Below, piece by piece: positions 18,574-60,905 of a stretch of 64,000 bases of DNA. A program made the position numbers and the translations under genes. How positions within the stretch are numbered: the first letter of the stretch is position 1; every line of letters begins with the position of its first letter. This DNA comes from Anaerolineales bacterium (GTDB taxonomy: Bacteria > Chloroflexota > Anaerolineae > Anaerolineales > Villigracilaceae), in assembly GCA_020847435.1 (NCBI GenBank), contig JADLBX010000009.1:1-64000 (forward strand), written 5' to 3'. Under the pieces are notes generated by a model that was not told the origin of the DNA, ran no database searches, and saw only the letters and a list, made by a program, of their open reading frames with translations.

Positions 18574-18651
18574 AAAAAATATCCGAGCAGGTGACCGGCG
18601 GCGCCCAGAGACTCTTCCTTACCGTTGCTGTCTTTCGACCCTGGCGGGGTT

Positions 18652-18682
18652 CGGCAGGCTCTGCCGCGCCGGGCCTGCCCGG
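18652..18682 (-). promoter_or_regulatory. Double GC-rich hairpin in a ~110-nt leader
   Basis: CGGCAG-gct-CTGCCG and CCGGGC-ct-GCCCGG sit side by side just downstream of the predicted minus-strand start site and ~75 bp before the 18573 start codon. They could be attenuator-like leader hairpins or a short intergenic repeat. Confidence 0.4.
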
Positions 18683-38463: not shown

Positions 38464-38471
38464 AATAATCT

Positions 38472-38609
38472 GTTGGTCGAGTAGCGAGCGTTTGTTGCGA
38501 GCGTATCGAGACCAACTGGTATTCAAGTAAAATTTTGTAACAAGTATTGCTTTACTGCGCGGTGGTCTCGATACGCCCCTCGAAGAGCGCTCGGGGCTAC
38601 TCGACCACC
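38472..38609. repeat. REP-like inverted pair (GGTCTCGATACG / CTACTCGACC)
   Basis: Unit 1 (38472-38516) begins GTTGGTCGAGTAGCGAGCG and ends ATCGAGACCAAC. Unit 2 (38561-38609) begins GGTGGTCTCGATACGCCCC and ends GGGGCTACTCGACCACC, the same element inverted, and a 44-bp spacer lies between. Each unit is itself a palindrome. The GGTCTCGATACG...CTACTCGACC form is widespread in bacterial intergenic DNA. The pair fills the 160-bp gap before the PLP-enzyme gene. Confidence 0.75.
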
Positions 38610-38623
38610 GAATAGGATTGAAA

Positions 38624-39616
38624 ATGAAAAACATTCCCCGCCTCCACTTCGCCCACCTTCCGACTCCCATCGAAGAACTGCCGCGTCTTTCCGCTCATTT
38701 GGGCGGACCGCGCCTCCTCGTCAAGCGCGACGACCAGACGGGACTCGCCTTCGGCGGCAACAAGACTCGCAAGTTGGAGTTCCTCGTCGCGGAAGCGTTG
38801 GAACAAGGCGCAAAGACGTTGATCTCGGGCGGCGCGTTGCAATCGAATCATTGTCGCCAAACTGCGGCTGCCGCCGCGCGATTTGGTTTGGATTGCATTC
38901 TCGTGCTGAACGGTGAAATGCCAGACAAGCCATCCGCAAATTTATTGCTCGATCAATTATTCGGCGCGCAGATTATCGCCATCCCAGACCGAAACGAGCG
39001 CGACCGCGTGTTGCAAGAAACTTTCGATAAAGCCGTTGCCGATGGTCGCAAGCCGTATCTTGTTCCCTATGGCGGATCGAGTCCGACGGGCGCGTTGGGG
39101 TACGCGTTCGCTGTGGAGGAGTTGATGGGGCAGATGAAAGACCTCCGAGTTCTTAAAGAACTCGGAGGTCTGGATTACATTGTCTTCGGCACATCCTCAG
39201 GCGGGACACACGCGGGGCTGGTGTTGGGTCAACGCGTGTTTGGCTTCAAAGGCAAGGTTTTGGGAATCAGCATTGACGAATCGGAAGAGTGGTTGAAGAG
39301 CCGCGTGTCCCAACTTGCATCGGAGGCGAGTGAAAAGTTGGGGGAGCGGATTCGGTTTGCTCCCGCCGACGTGGCCGCGAATGCCGACTACTGCGCGGCA
39401 GGCTACGGGGTCCTGACCGACGCGGAGCGCGAAGCGGTCACATTGTTTGCAAAGTACGAAGGTCTCTTGCTCGATCCCGTCTACACGGGGCGCGCCGCGG
39501 CGGGGATGATTGACCTGATCCGAAAAGGCTATTTCACGAAGGAGGAGACTGTGCTATTCTGGCACACGGGCGGACAGCCTGCATTGTTTGCGGAGAAGTA
39601 TGCGAATAAGATATAG
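38624..39616 (+). CDS. PLP-dependent D-cysteine desulfhydrase / ACC deaminase family enzyme
   Basis: 330 residues from ATG 38624; a TTG six bases upstream is an alternative. Fold-type II PLP enzyme: VKRDDQTGLAFGGNKTRKLE with the PLP Lys near 47, SGGALQSNHCRQTAAAAARF, LVPYGGSSPTGALGYAFA and FGTSSGGTHAGLVLG. It should degrade D-cysteine to pyruvate, ammonia and sulfide, or cleave ACC; the DcyD branch looks closer, but this needs phylogeny. Residues ~172-183 (KDLRVLKELGGL) are encoded by a perfect 33-bp palindrome, apparently an insertion. The last 23 codons have a diverged second copy at 40870-40938. Confidence 0.85.
   Translation: MKNIPRLHFAHLPTPIEELPRLSAHLGGPRLLVKRDDQTGLAFGGNKTRKLEFLVAEALEQGAKTLISGGALQSNHCRQTAAAAARFGLDCILVLNGEMPDKPSANLLLDQLFGAQIIAIPDRNERDRVLQETFDKAVADGRKPYLVPYGGSSPTGALGYAFAVEELMGQMKDLRVLKELGGLDYIVFGTSSGGTHAGLVLGQRVFGFKGKVLGISIDESEEWLKSRVSQLASEASEKLGERIRFAPADVAANADYCAAGYGVLTDAEREAVTLFAKYEGLLLDPVYTGRAAAGMIDLIRKGYFTKEETVLFWHTGGQPALFAEKYANKI
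39139..39171 (+). repeat. 33-bp palindrome inside the PLP-enzyme gene
   Basis: AGACCTCCGAGTTCTT and AAGAACTCGGAGGTCT are perfect 16-bp arms around a single A. The unit at 57801-57833 has the same size, the same AGACCT...AGGTCT ends and a single-base centre. The reading frame is kept. Confidence 0.8.
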
Positions 39617-39639
39617 CGCATGTGGAAAGCGAAGTGAAT

Positions 39640-40806
39640 ATGAGACCAACAATCAGGTTCGTTGCATTGTTTATCATGGTCATCCCGATTGTGTCCGCCT
39701 GTAGTTCTGCCGTGCCAATCGCAACTGTTGCGGCGATATCATCACAAGCGCCAGCCGTATCTCCAACGGAAACGACCGTGCCGACGGAGACGGTCACTCC
39801 TGAACCTTCGCTCACGCCAACACCGACGATCCTCGATCTGGAGATCCTGGAATGGTTGGAGTGGCCCTACGCCAACCTGGTAGACCCTTCGAATAAAGAT
39901 ACTCATGTAGAAGCGCTCATCCATAATCCAAATAATTTCCCTGTGAAGGTGGGCAATGGAAACGATGAATTGCGATTCGTGAATGCAGCTGGCGAGGTTG
40001 TGTATGTAAATCCCAACCCGGTCTTTTACATCTGGCAGGGCGAATGGATGCTGCCGGGCGAAACTGCGGCGCTCTCTGCCTGCGTGTGTTTCCAGACACA
40101 GGGATTGGAAAGGCAGGCTTGGGAAACTCTTGAATTAGTGGCGCCGCTTGAGATCGCCACTGATCTTGCCTACACTCCTGACGTGGATGTGACGGCAGAA
40201 TTTGTTCTCCTTGAGGAGGTTACTCATGGCTTTACGGGACCTGGCGTAGCCACGACCATGACGAATACCAGCGACCAGGTATTGGAAAGCGTCGCATATC
40301 GCGTACTGGCGCGCGATGACAACGGCCGCTATGTTGGCGTTGCGGCTTCTGGAAATGCAGTAGCCAGCTTCTTTGAAAAAATAGGCATACAACCTGGCGA
40401 CACAGCCAGCGGGCTTTCAGTTAGCGATATCAATTATGTTGGTAATGAACGGCTCACCTACGAGGTCGCCGCCATTGGCATCCCTTATCAGGAGGAGGTT
40501 GTGCCAGCCATCACCCTGCCTGTGGGAACCCCACTAGCGGAATGGGAAGATTTCCCGATCATGCCGGGCGCCATCAGCGGTGAAGCTGTGGGCAATTCCT
40601 ATCAATTTACCACTCAGGCAGATATTGATTCGATCGTGGCTTTCTACCAAACCGAACTTTCCGCTCTGGGTTTTGAATACGAGTTAACGGTCAATGAAAG
40701 CGCAGGATTCACGGCGTTGTATTTTGTTGGAAACAATATTACTGGCGCGGTTGTGGTCACAGCCGTTGGCGGAGTCAACGCGGTTCTTATCACCACCGGA
40801 TCGTAA
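39640..40806 (+). CDS. Lipoprotein, unknown function
   Basis: 388 residues from the ATG at 39640 (an upstream GTG at 39622 is less likely). A lipoprotein signal peptide ends in the lipobox VSAC, so the mature protein starts with the lipid-bearing Cys. A Thr/Pro-rich linker (residues ~30-65) leads to two beta-rich regions without a family I recognise: one with VEALIHNPNNFPVKVGNGND near 95-115 and one with VTHGFTGPGVATTMTNTSDQ near 200. The C-terminal ~60 residues (IDSIVAFYQTELSALGFEYE) look like a short alpha-beta module. The gene is flanked by the 3' end of the PLP-enzyme gene and a second, partial copy of that end. Confidence 0.75.
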   Translation: MRPTIRFVALFIMVIPIVSACSSAVPIATVAAISSQAPAVSPTETTVPTETVTPEPSLTPTPTILDLEILEWLEWPYANLVDPSNKDTHVEALIHNPNNFPVKVGNGNDELRFVNAAGEVVYVNPNPVFYIWQGEWMLPGETAALSACVCFQTQGLERQAWETLELVAPLEIATDLAYTPDVDVTAEFVLLEEVTHGFTGPGVATTMTNTSDQVLESVAYRVLARDDNGRYVGVAASGNAVASFFEKIGIQPGDTASGLSVSDINYVGNERLTYEVAAIGIPYQEEVVPAITLPVGTPLAEWEDFPIMPGAISGEAVGNSYQFTTQADIDSIVAFYQTELSALGFEYELTVNESAGFTALYFVGNNITGAVVVTAVGGVNAVLITTGS

Positions 40807-40869: not shown

Positions 40870-40938
40870 GAGGAACTATTCTGGCACACAGGCGGACAGC
40901 CCGCGCTGTTTGCGGAGAGATATGCGAACAAGATTTGA
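40870..40938 (+). pseudogene. Partial second copy of the PLP-enzyme 3' end
   Basis: The reading E-E-L-F-W-H-T-G-G-Q-P-A-L-F-A-E-R-Y-A-N-K-I-stop repeats the C-terminus of the enzyme at 38624 (ETVLFWHTGGQPALFAEKYA) with about one base in five changed. No matching upstream part is present and no start codon applies, so it is a remnant. Together with the true gene end it brackets the lipoprotein gene. Confidence 0.75.
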
Positions 40939-41922: not shown

Positions 41923-41966
41923 CAAGAAACAAGCCGACCAGAGGATACTGATCGGCTTGTTTCTTG
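41923..41966. terminator. Possible hairpin terminator downstream of the Gre-type gene
   Basis: CAAGAAACAAGCCGA (41923-41937) and TCGGCTTGTTTCTTG (41952-41966) form a perfect 15-bp stem with a 14-nt loop, 20 bp after the minus-strand stop at 41986. A T-tract follows neither strand closely, so termination is likely but not certain. Confidence 0.5.
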
Positions 41967-51440: not shown

Positions 51441-51446
51441 CGCGTA

Positions 51447-51467
51447 GAGCAAAATGCCATTTTGCTC
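51447..51467. repeat. Post-stop palindrome, copy 2 (GAGCAAAATG-C-CATTTTGCTC)
   Basis: Perfect 10-bp arms around one C, starting 6 bp after the RodZ-like stop. Same GCAA..TTGC type as 12750, 52834 and 60872. Confidence 0.7.
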
Positions 51468-51487
51468 AACAACATAGGAATATCTTC

Positions 51488-57438: not shown

Positions 57439-57786
57439 CTACGCGTACATCCCCCAATCCAACGCGGATGGGTCTTCCATCATCGAGAAGTCCCACATAT
57501 CCATACCCATCTCGATGGTGACGGGCATATTCAATCCTTCGGTTGCCTTGGCTTTGGTCATTTCGATCATCGCCGGACCGTACGGGCAGAACGGAGTGGT
57601 GAGGATCATCTTCACGTGCGCAACGCCGTCCTCGATCGAAATATCGCGCACCAAACCGAGTTGGATGATGTGCATCCCGATCTCGGGGTCAATTACTTCG
57701 GAAAGTCTCTCCCGGGCGGGAGCGACCATTTCCGGGTGCGTTTGGTGGATTGTCCATTGGATCTCGTTGACGGTCTCTTCGGTCAT
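57439..57786 (-). CDS. DUF59/MIP18-family metal-sulfur cluster assembly factor
   Basis: 115 residues from the ATG at 57786, with GGAGAT 5 nt upstream. DUF59 core LSEVIDPEIGMHIIQLGLVR, ILTTPFCPYGPAM with the conserved Cys, and a Met-rich C-terminus (MDMWDFSMMEDPSALDWGM). SufT/PaaD-like proteins help mature Fe-S proteins, which fits the adjacent suf genes. It is transcribed with, and downstream of, the SufR-like gene, with a 33-bp palindrome between them. Confidence 0.85.
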   Translation of the reverse strand: MTEETVNEIQWTIHQTHPEMVAPARERLSEVIDPEIGMHIIQLGLVRDISIEDGVAHVKMILTTPFCPYGPAMIEMTKAKATEGLNMPVTIEMGMDMWDFSMMEDPSALDWGMYA

Positions 57787-57800
57787 TTTTATCTCCAAAG

Positions 57801-57833
57801 AGACCTGTGAGGTCTTCAAGACCTCACAGGTCT
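57801..57833. repeat. 33-bp palindrome (AGACCTGTGAGGTCTT-C-AAGACCTCACAGGTCT)
   Basis: Perfect 16-bp arms around one C, between the sufR-like and DUF59 genes. The copy inside the PLP-enzyme gene at 39139-39171 has the same size, ends and single-base centre. Confidence 0.8.
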
Positions 57834-57837
57834 GAAT

Positions 57838-58458
57838 TTAGTTTTTCGTTCCGGGATTTACTACATACGTACAGCGCGCGCTTCCATCCAGAATACATTG
57901 AACTTTTTGGGCGGGGAGGGCAAGCATCTTTGAGATCAATGTTTGGTCCACTGTGCAGACCTCCGGGTGCGCGACGCTGATCTGGTAATAAGGACATGCG
58001 AGTTCGTGGATCTGGTACTCCTTATCCTTCTTTTCCCACTCGATTGTGAAGCCCTCCTGCGCGAGCATCTCCTTGACGAAGTTTAGCCGCTCTTCGATGC
58101 TGAGGTCCTTGATCTGGTCGGAATATTGATCCGCCATGTTTTCCGCGATCTGGCTGAATAACTTGTTCACTTCCGGCGCGGGCATGGTCTCTTTCATCTG
58201 AGCCAGCAATTTGGTTGTGAGCCGCAAATATTTCGTTGGGAAGCGTTCCATCCCATCCGGTGTGAGCGAGTAGATGAAGCGCGGGCGCCCCACGCCGTGC
58301 CGTTCTTCATCTGCCTTGATCAGCCCCTCGGCGGTGAGGTTGGTGAGGTGGTGGCGGACAGAAATAGCGTTGATCCCCACGGCTTCGGCAAGTTCGTTGA
58401 TGCTGATTTTCGGCTTGCGGTGTAGTGTATCGAGAATCCGGTCTTTCGTGCTTTTCAT
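57838..58458 (-). CDS. sufR: SufR-like iron-sulfur repressor of the suf genes
   Basis: 206 residues from the ATG at 58458; a longer frame from 58494 would start inside the promoter. Winged helix ~1-75 (STKDRILDTLHRKPKISINE, INAISVRHHLTNLTAEGLIK). The C-terminal half carries four Cys (CPYYQISVAHPEVC, then QCILDGSARC), the pattern expected to bind a [4Fe-4S] cluster in cyanobacterial SufR. It lies back-to-back with sufC and shares a palindromic operator with it, so it probably represses both when clusters are plentiful. Its own mRNA appears leaderless (7 nt from -10 to ATG). Confidence 0.9.
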   Translation of the reverse strand: MKSTKDRILDTLHRKPKISINELAEAVGINAISVRHHLTNLTAEGLIKADEERHGVGRPRFIYSLTPDGMERFPTKYLRLTTKLLAQMKETMPAPEVNKLFSQIAENMADQYSDQIKDLSIEERLNFVKEMLAQEGFTIEWEKKDKEYQIHELACPYYQISVAHPEVCTVDQTLISKMLALPAQKVQCILDGSARCTYVVNPGTKN

Positions 58459-58465
58459 AGTGGGC

Positions 58466-58494
58466 AGTATAACCGTCTGCTTTTGTATTGTCAA
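58466..58494 (-). promoter_or_regulatory. Promoter of sufR, near-consensus
   Basis: On the minus strand TTGACA (58489-58494) and TATACT (58466-58471) are 17 bp apart, and only 7 bp separate the -10 from the ATG at 58458, predicting a leaderless transcript. Confidence 0.8.
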
Positions 58495-59461: not shown

Positions 59462-60871
59462 ATGAGTGAAGATGCGCAAATCTTAGAAGATATTGGCGAG
59501 TATAAATACGGTTTTCACGACCGTGACGATTACTACACCTTTAAATCCCGCAAGGGACTCGACCGCGAAGTGGTGGAGCAGATCTCGCACATGAAGGGCG
59601 AGCCGCAGTGGATGCTCGACTTCCGCTTGAAGGCGCTCGACCATTTCACGAAGCGACCGATGCCGAACTGGGGTCCCTCGTTGAAAGAGCTGGACCTCGA
59701 CAACATTTATTACTACGTCAAGCCGACCGAGAAAAGCGAAAAATCATGGGACGACGTTCCCGACGACATCAAGCGCACATTCGATAAACTCGGCGTGCCG
59801 GAAGCGGAACGAAAATTCCTGGCGGGCTTGGGCGCGCAATACGAATCGGAGATGGTGTATCACTCCATTCAAGAACATCTCGAAAAGCAGGGCGTGATCT
59901 TCCTCTCGATTGAAGACGGGCTGCGCCAGCACCCCGACCTGTTCCGTGAATATTTCGGGACGGTCATCCCGATTGAAGATAACAAGTTTGCCGCGTTGAA
60001 CAGCGCGGTTTGGTCGGGCGGATCGTTCGTGTACGTGCCGAAAGGCGTGAAGGTGGATTTGCCCCTGCAGGCATATTTCCGTTTGAACACCGCGAACGTC
60101 GGTCAATTTGAACGGACGCTCATTATCGTGGACGAAGGCGCGTCGGTGCATTACGTCGAAGGTTGTACCGCGCCGCAATACACCACCGATTCGTTCCACT
60201 CCGGTGTGATCGAGATCATCGTCAAAAAAGGCGCGCGCTCGCGTTACTCGACGATTCAAAACTGGTCAACGAACGTCTACAATCTCGTAACCCAACGCGC
60301 CAAAGTATTCGAGAACGGCACGCACGAATGGGTGGACGCCAACCTCGGCTCGAAAGTCACGATGAAATATCCATCATGCTATCTGATGGAACCCGGCGCG
60401 CGCGGTGAGATGCTCTCGATGGCGTTCGCAGGACCCGGTCAGACGCAGGACGCGGGCTCGAAGATGGTGCACTTCGCGCCGAACACGTCGAGCAAGATCA
60501 CCTCGAAATCCATTTCCAAAGCGGGCGGACGCGCGTCCTATCGCGGTTTGCTCAAAGTCCACAAAGGCGCGAAGGGCGTCAAGTCCAACGTTGTGTGCGA
60601 CGCGTTGTTGCTTGATCCGCAATCGCGCTCCGACACGTACCCCTACATCGAAATTGACGAAGACGACGTCACCATTGGTCACGAAGCCTCGGTGAGCAAA
60701 GTGGGTGAGGAGCAACTCTTCTACCTCATGAGCCGCGGTCTCAGCGAAGAAGAAGCCACGACCATGGTCGTCTCCGGTTTCATCGAGCCGCTCGTCAAAG
60801 AATTACCGATGGAATACGCGGTTGAGATGAATCGTTTGATCGCGTTGCAGATGGAAGGAAGTATTGGGTAA
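59462..60871 (+). CDS. sufB: Fe-S cluster assembly scaffold SufB
   Basis: 469 residues, the usual length. SufB motifs: [20 protein letters not shown] near 58-77, [35 protein letters not shown], and the C-terminal [10 protein letters not shown]-type segment ([20 protein letters not shown]) with the conserved tail. The Cys of VEGCTAPQ and the catalytic Glu residues are present. It receives sulfur from SufS and builds the nascent cluster with SufC and SufD. Confidence 0.97.
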
Positions 60872-60890
60872 CGCAAATTGCCAATTTGCG
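60872..60890. repeat. Post-stop palindrome, copy 4 (CGCAAATTG-C-CAATTTGCG)
   Basis: Perfect 9-bp arms around one C, starting immediately after the sufB TAA, inside the sufB-sufD spacer of the operon. Confidence 0.7.
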
Positions 60891-60905
60891 CTACAGGAAA
60901 AAATT

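Follow-up and report, generated by a model that had tools for sequence, protein, structure and literature searches.

How did a perfect 33-bp palindrome come to lie in frame inside an enzyme gene, with a second palindrome of the same kind between two other genes? The question arose from a 64,000-nucleotide stretch of an Anaerolineales genome (hereafter the window), in which an earlier note, made from the letters alone, had described both palindromes. We found them at exactly 39139-39171 and 57801-57833; in both, a single central nucleotide separates perfect arms of 16 bp. Throughout, G000 denotes the window's own genome (3.05 Mb) and G012 its nearest relative (grouped with G000 at 100/98). The features concerned are the following.

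38624 to 39616, plus strand: gene of a PLP-dependent enzyme (D-cysteine desulfhydrase / ACC deaminase type; PALP, PF00291, E=1.4e-46), host of the in-gene palindrome.
39139 to 39171, no strand assigned: in-frame 33-bp palindrome, 15-bp arms and a 3-nt loop TAA; 19 of 30 orthologues have an empty site.
57439 to 57789, minus strand: FeS_assembly_P gene (iron-sulfur cluster assembly protein; PF01883, E=1.6e-14).
57801 to 57833, no strand assigned: intercistronic 33-bp palindrome of the same family as the 39139-39171 copy; palindromes with differing but matched arms lie there in G013, G014 and G010.
57838 to 58494, minus strand: winged-helix regulator gene (HTH_24, E=4.9e-10), whose end is 4 bp from the second palindrome.

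The host of the first palindrome is probably a D-cysteine-desulfhydrase-like enzyme, an amino-acid enzyme, as judged from its family match and from its best PDB match (7ysk, D-cysteine desulfhydrase, E=9.4e-80); a structure predicted from the single sequence had a mean pLDDT of 38 and was discarded. As the earlier note had claimed, the frame is open across the palindrome and the residues it named are encoded. It had counted 11-12 residues as added; these are indeed encoded, but compared with the empty allele the gene is longer by 9 residues, or 27 nt (33 in, 6 out). Its description of the second palindrome as intergenic also held in part. Both neighbours of the unit are minus-strand genes; the stop of the regulator is 4 bp away, and the start of the FeS_assembly_P gene is 11 bp away when ATG 57789 is taken, which is our choice. 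The TTG start of the open reading frame list (57819) falls inside the palindrome.

A scan of the window for hairpins with arms of at least 14 bp, at most one mismatch and a loop of up to 8 returned four, whereas three 3-mer shuffles averaged 0.33. In an Rfam scan of the window at the gathering score, the sole match was the bacterial small SRP RNA at 18582-18680 on the minus strand, and the palindromes gave no match. Three further repeats were observed. At 41923-41966 there is a 44-bp hairpin that is kept nearly base for base at the equivalent place of G012. At about 38470-38605, between neighbouring genes, lies an inverted repeat, GTCGAGTAGCGAGC...GTATCGAGACC and its complement, which we take to be of a widespread type. 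Finally, the last 59 nt of the PLP-enzyme gene (39554-39612) are repeated (88%) at 40876-40934, 1322 bp downstream and on the far side of a 394-aa open reading frame (ORF; 39622-40806), as if this ORF had arrived with a duplicated gene end.

The two palindromes belong to a larger family. The genome-wide search that the earlier note had proposed found further copies: the pattern AGACCTN{20,22}AGGTCT matched 41 places in G000, against 0 for a reversed-pattern control. This pattern fixed the outer six bases of both arms and left the inner nine pairs unconstrained. Perfect 15-bp arms were present in 32 of the 41 copies and one mismatch in six; the other three, with 3, 4 and 7 arm mismatches, may reflect chance or decay. 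Since 15 bp are kept across copies and the central 3 nt are free (22 forms of the central bases among the 41 copies), 15+3+15 is a better description than 16+1+16. Each arm is itself nearly palindromic, with six bases, three free bases and again six bases (6-3-6). This format is common to several sequence families, for example those with AGACCTCCGAGGTCT, AGACTTCCGAAGTCT, AACCTTGCGAAGGTT and AGGTGACAGTCACCT-like arms. In 400 kb of G012, the sole DNA picked regardless of motif or of synteny to a copy, arms of exactly 15 bp were found in 4 of 11 palindromes with a free 3-nt centre and arms of at least 12 bp, which is a modest peak; among genus stretches selected for their synteny with the window, the two known sites included, this was the case for 8 of 11. 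The 6-3-6 symmetry (at least four of six matches, arms of at least 15) was found in 5 of 7 and 9 of 9 palindromes of these two sets, respectively.

We then analyzed which part of the unit is kept matched, using 32 of the 41 sequences (five duplicates, one 34-mer and the three copies with at least 3 arm mismatches were left out). In the long hairpin, 99.4% of the cells were paired, and 54 two-sided changes were counted, against 18.1 in shuffles. The covariation score was 0.305 (0.093 shuffled), the outer six pairs being fixed by the search pattern; seven of the 15 pairs of the long stem were invariant, six of them pattern-fixed. The alternative fold into two mini-hairpins showed 0 two-sided changes. 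The long stem is therefore the part that is kept matched, and the inner 6-3-6 symmetry looks like a relic of the origin of the unit. The RNA folding energy of three examples was -25.6 to -26.6 kcal/mol. A unit of 33 nt equals 11 codons, and since in the window's copy the arms are free of stops in all frames, the reading frame can be closed by the loop only.

Orthologues of the PLP enzyme were matched in 57 of 61 genomes; 30 loci were fetched and all 30 could be aligned. The 19 orthologues without the palindrome also lack its residues and have a short empty loop, with a spacing of 69 nt between the conserved segments in 19 of 19. G012 is among the empty ones, which answers the search for an empty site in close relatives that the earlier note had suggested. 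Together, the 41 places and the empty homologue sites support its idea of a mobile or copied repeat that can enter coding sequence without killing the gene; neither of the two conditions that it had named as refuting held. No stop codons were reported in the 30 loci examined.

Two classes can be told apart among the 11 filled alleles, since their sequences differ and their junctions are usually offset by 4 nt: AGAC-type (G000, G015, G016, G011, G032 with a longer loop, and G019 with one arm left) and AACCTT-type (G014, G002, G013, G021 and G023). The net gain was 27 nt in seven of them and 9, 30, 42 and 51 nt in the remainder. A gene tree built without the insert zone implied at least seven changes between the filled and empty states, or nine when the classes were counted, and a single clade was rejected for all filled alleles (p 1.6e-86), for the AGAC-type (4.5e-68) and for the AACCTT-type (1e-5). 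The left junction was identical in five of six AGAC-type and four of five AACCTT-type alleles, across genera. Such constancy is unexpected under plain random insertion and speaks against the explanation that we favor below.

When 39 copies of G000 were classified by position (two of the three copies with at least 3 arm mismatches being left out), 29 were intergenic, eight lay inside ORFs and two were unclear. According to Pfam, the copies in LeuRS, PriA and a radical SAM/HemN protein lie within conserved proteins, and for one copy in a 641-aa ORF no Pfam family was found. The copies in two ABC-protein ORFs and one amidohydrolase ORF are close to the ORF ends and may be outside true genes; three of the eight inside copies (L155, L168 and L182), at about 26 residues or fewer from the ORF end, may lie outside the true gene. 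Copies of G000 whose orthologous place was found in the 400 kb of G012 and in the earlier stretches were those of the PLP enzyme and LeuRS only. In named genomes, seven of the 14 ORFs with an inside copy were scanned for families, and these had a UvrD helicase domain, an NB-ARC domain or, in four cases, DNA-methylase matches, one being without a family.

The LeuRS site was covered by 25 alignments, nine of which showed a hairpin with arms of at least 11 bp: two of AGACCT-type, three of CCTTCC-type, two of TGTCCAGCAGT-type and two others, that is, five hairpin types in a single loop across relatives. Two further LeuRS keep one 15-bp arm (by eye), and others are plainly empty. The filled LeuRS of G016 is in two pieces with one stop. 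At a second place of LeuRS, query residues 622-631 (L239-L263), hairpins occur in five relatives, three of them CCCCTCTCCC...GGGAGAGGGG-like. In summary, conserved proteins carry copies in frame, and several types of hairpin share a single loop in the PLP enzyme and likewise in LeuRS.

For PriA, the site was covered in 15 genus members and filled in four of them (G000, G016, G008 and G015), all with one junction and a 4-nt loop, a loop length found in one of the 41 copies of G000; the other 11, G012 included, have an IVExGLP-like loop, and 34 nt went in for about 13 out. Because the junction and the 4-nt loop are common to all four, these alleles appear to go back to a single old insertion, passed on by inheritance or by exchange between species. 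Not every filled allele would then be a separate insertion, which is a further point against the explanation favored below.

To define the range of the family, we used an AGACCT-type covariance model, which matched in 44 of 61 genomes, the window's own included. Counts covered both strands and went from 0 (G009, of the same genus, 80% complete) to at least 109 (G042); 116 candidates were scored, and the top values are lower bounds. A stricter pattern was present in at least 118 stretches of named genomes. Among the matches listed, 119 of 126 named-genome copies had perfect arms, and the palindrome occurred in seven phylum-level groups (names from record titles): Chloroflexota, Cyanobacteria, Desulfobacterales with Desulfuromonadales, Thiotrichaceae with Methylococcaceae, Bacteroidota, KSB1 and Latescibacteria. 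Many of these records are MAGs; that of Desulfonema magnum is a complete genome. A plasmid search returned one record, from Kovacikia minuta, with three places. In Desulfobacterales HSG2 (L129, 3561-6711), 332-aa frames were observed in three successive units of about 1045-1060 bp between 33-bp palindromes of the same format.

The palindrome was also present in nine stretches of viral contigs. The phage contig L322 carries seven copies in 10.9 kb of a structural-gene stretch (portal, head protease, major head, major tail and endolysin), six of which start 4-14 nt past the stop of a sense ORF and one of which is in frame near the end of the portal ORF. The four related phage loci examined (L328-L331, of 66 found) had no 33-mer at the L322 places, in alignments that spanned two junctions only. 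At one of these two junctions, other hairpins were seen by eye in L328 and L329; L329 carries one 33-mer elsewhere, and L328 another hairpin after its capsid gene. GenBank phages did not contain the full pattern; the matches there were 19 bases long and came from two records of the same phage. Because copies are present in phage contigs, phages could be one vehicle between hosts.

Outside genes, we found a moderate excess of copies just past stop codons. The distance to the stop was at most 15 nt for 21 of the 27 intergenic copies of G000 with a flanking stop (14.8 expected; median 7 nt), for 30 of 72 named-genome copies among the matches listed (20.3 expected; median 21 nt) and for 10 of 12 viral-contig copies (4.0 expected; median 8.5), the expectation being random placement in the same gaps with a length-only gene caller, relatives not being independent and the viral set including two contig pairs that resemble one phage each. 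The placement was unclear for 2 of 39 copies in G000, 19 of 126 in named genomes and 0 of 17 in viral contigs. The length-only caller placed five viral copies inside genes; by our reading, the position of four of them (two places, in L318 and L322) is between sense genes. The place at 57801-57833, which counts as one place in four species, keeps matched arms although the arms of G013, G014 and G010 are of other sequence. For comparison, excerpts of PMC3733652, PMC8266576 and PMC12306157 give 446 of 4,072 E. coli REPs within 15 nt of a stop, and REPs at this distance are reported to stall ribosomes in passages of PMC12306157.

The element is thus dispersed, present or absent at orthologous places, common to several phyla and phages, and its arms are matched despite divergence. 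We conclude, with a probability of about 0.68, that the palindrome is a copy of a dispersed, REP-like hairpin element whose size is constant (arms of 15 bp with 6-3-6 symmetry, loop of 3 nt). Such an element would spread as a single-stranded hairpin, moved in trans by some activity. Its arms would be re-copied from each other, either during each move (hairpin-templated synthesis) or in place (quasipalindrome correction), and would thereby stay matched even if the sequence were not under selection; that one arm serves as template for the other appears to be the best explanation for the matching. Outside genes, copies might persist where a hairpin a few nucleotides past a stop is neutral or useful to the mRNA, and in permissive protein loops they might be tolerated, only the loop being able to close the frame. 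A bolder proposal, which we regard as tentative and rather doubtful, is that of a format-defined class of mobile DNA: untagged 33-bp double palindromes that would move as hairpins through several phyla and phages with no Y1 transposase of their own, have one arm rewritten from the other at each move and revisit the same loops in essential proteins.

An ordinary REP, moved by TnpAREP/RAYT (Y1 HUH) and with its GTAG tag lost or unneeded, is an unlikely account. Perfect palindromic REPs with a 3-nt centre do exist beside group 3 TnpAREP, as described in excerpts of PMC8266576, and Y1_Tnp was matched in 57 of 61 genomes, with five matches in G000. Model hits correlated weakly with the Y1 count (rho 0.36, p 0.0045, 61 genomes, uncorrected for phylogeny). 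However, within the genus the correlation fell to rho 0.26 (p 0.30), G042 combines its at least 109 hits with 2 Y1 matches (best E 7.1e-5), and G059 has four hits and no Y1 match. The REPtron arrangement was also missing: a 33-mer was found within 3.5-4 kb at 0 of the four fetched Y1 loci of G000. Neither GTAG nor CGTC was among the 12 commonest stem-adjacent tetranucleotides in the 320 flanks of 160 copies, where AAAA (24) and AATC (9) led. With a correlation that was weak only and no local association at four G000 loci, Y1_Tnp was rejected as the mobiliser. The flanks are biased towards A or C adjoining the element and towards TC/AA dinucleotides. A polarity of TC-flanked copies, seen by eye, leaned on related copies in two lineages and was not used.

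We give a similarly small chance to a process without a dedicated enzyme, in which short hairpin DNA would be captured at replication forks, or through uptake and illegitimate recombination, with a few target bases replaced, and filled alleles would then pass between species by short-tract recombination. SPDIR is the uptake mechanism invoked for such hairpin capture; a search of the open-access literature found nothing on it. Target duplications of lengths 4-8 occurred in 0 of 160 copies, and shorter ones were as in shuffled flanks at length 2 (10 versus 10.2) and numbered 4 versus 2.8 at length 3. Because no target duplication was present in the 160 copies, there is no footprint of classical transposition, which speaks against the element that we favor. 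The lack of duplications fits capture, as does the exchange of 33 nt for 6 in the PLP enzyme and of 34 for about 13 in PriA. Identical junctions in different species and sharing across phyla also fit capture. It leaves unexplained the fixed 15+3+15 format and the range from 0 to at least 109 hits within one genus (the 0-hit genome being 80% complete).

That the hairpins are selected regulatory parts, acting after stops in the mRNA and spread by selection, with in-gene copies affecting translation speed, seems to us distinctly improbable. The excess past stop codons, the five hairpin types in one LeuRS loop, the other hairpins seen by eye at one junction of two related phages and the one behind the L328 capsid gene would agree with it. 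A generic hairpin role, however, needs no sequence identity across phyla, hit numbers differ widely between species of one genus, and many orthologues are empty. A MITE, formed when the terminal inverted repeats of an insertion sequence of the DDE type collapsed together, would account for perfect inverted repeats and dispersion but is very improbable given 160 copies free of 4-8 bp target duplications and open frames between neighbouring copies that vary in length from pair to pair. An autonomous element between two copies was rejected on the same variation, frames being compared by length.

REPs and coding palindromes were known before, and how they spread is largely unsolved. The REP-like element described here offers empty and filled alleles of housekeeping genes, a phage contig with seven copies, a strict format and 0 to at least 109 hits within one genus; the source, the matching of the arms and the cost inside genes can therefore be tested directly. 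There is a caution for annotators as well: where environmental proteins contain peptides like TSEVxxTSEV or DLRxLxxLGGL, these can derive from DNA hairpins.

REPs (GTAG/CGTC families and group 3 REPtrons) are among the closest known systems: excerpts of PMC3733652, PMC8266576 and PMC12306157 describe hairpins of 20-50 nt in many copies, mostly intergenic and some in genes. Our element is likewise a short hairpin in many copies (41 places), mostly intergenic (29 of 39) and at times inside genes. Unlike REPs, it has no GTAG/CGTC tag, has no 33-mer near the four fetched Y1 genes, and combines a free loop and 6-3-6 arms with the same sequence across phyla and phages. The window also holds two 27-bp near-palindromes of GTAG...CTAC type (like GTAGCGCAAATTGnCAATTTGCGCTAC), at 51444-51470 and 60868-60894, with base-variant forms at the equivalent places of G012 and G014, respectively; these do look like tagged REPs.

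With MITEs, the element shares small size, lack of coding and dispersion, but it has no target duplication and no internal region, the entire 33-bp unit being the inverted repeat. The small dispersed repeats (SDR) of Nostoc are very small mobile repeats too, the likeness being one of description. The mitochondrial coding palindromes of Nematomorpha are perfect inverted repeats in genes, with a mean arm of 43 bp and up to 142 bp, and excerpts of PMC6649704 name template switching as a possible cause of arms evolving together; unlike our element, they are mitochondrial and are not described there as one dispersed sequence family. In Candidatus Thiomargarita nelsonii, repeats found by RepeatModeler are called "typically palindromic" and broadly dispersed in excerpts of PMC4853749. 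This bacterium carries the AGACCT-type pattern (L110), and the 33-bp family may be among these repeats, unnamed, the two being likened by description; apart from this, no description of the family was recognised in the open-access literature, supplements being outside its scope.

Rickettsia palindromic elements (RPE), of 105-146 bp, lie between genes and in frame inside conserved genes according to excerpts of PMC2229807. The copies in PLP enzyme, LeuRS and PriA, besides the intergenic ones, resemble them in this respect, but our element misses the unit size of about 100-150 bp and is not limited to one genus. Since it is both REP- and RPE-like, yet fails the REP tag, the REPtron arrangement and the RPE size, we regard it as a variant of REP-like coding palindromes that is new and lacks a tag.
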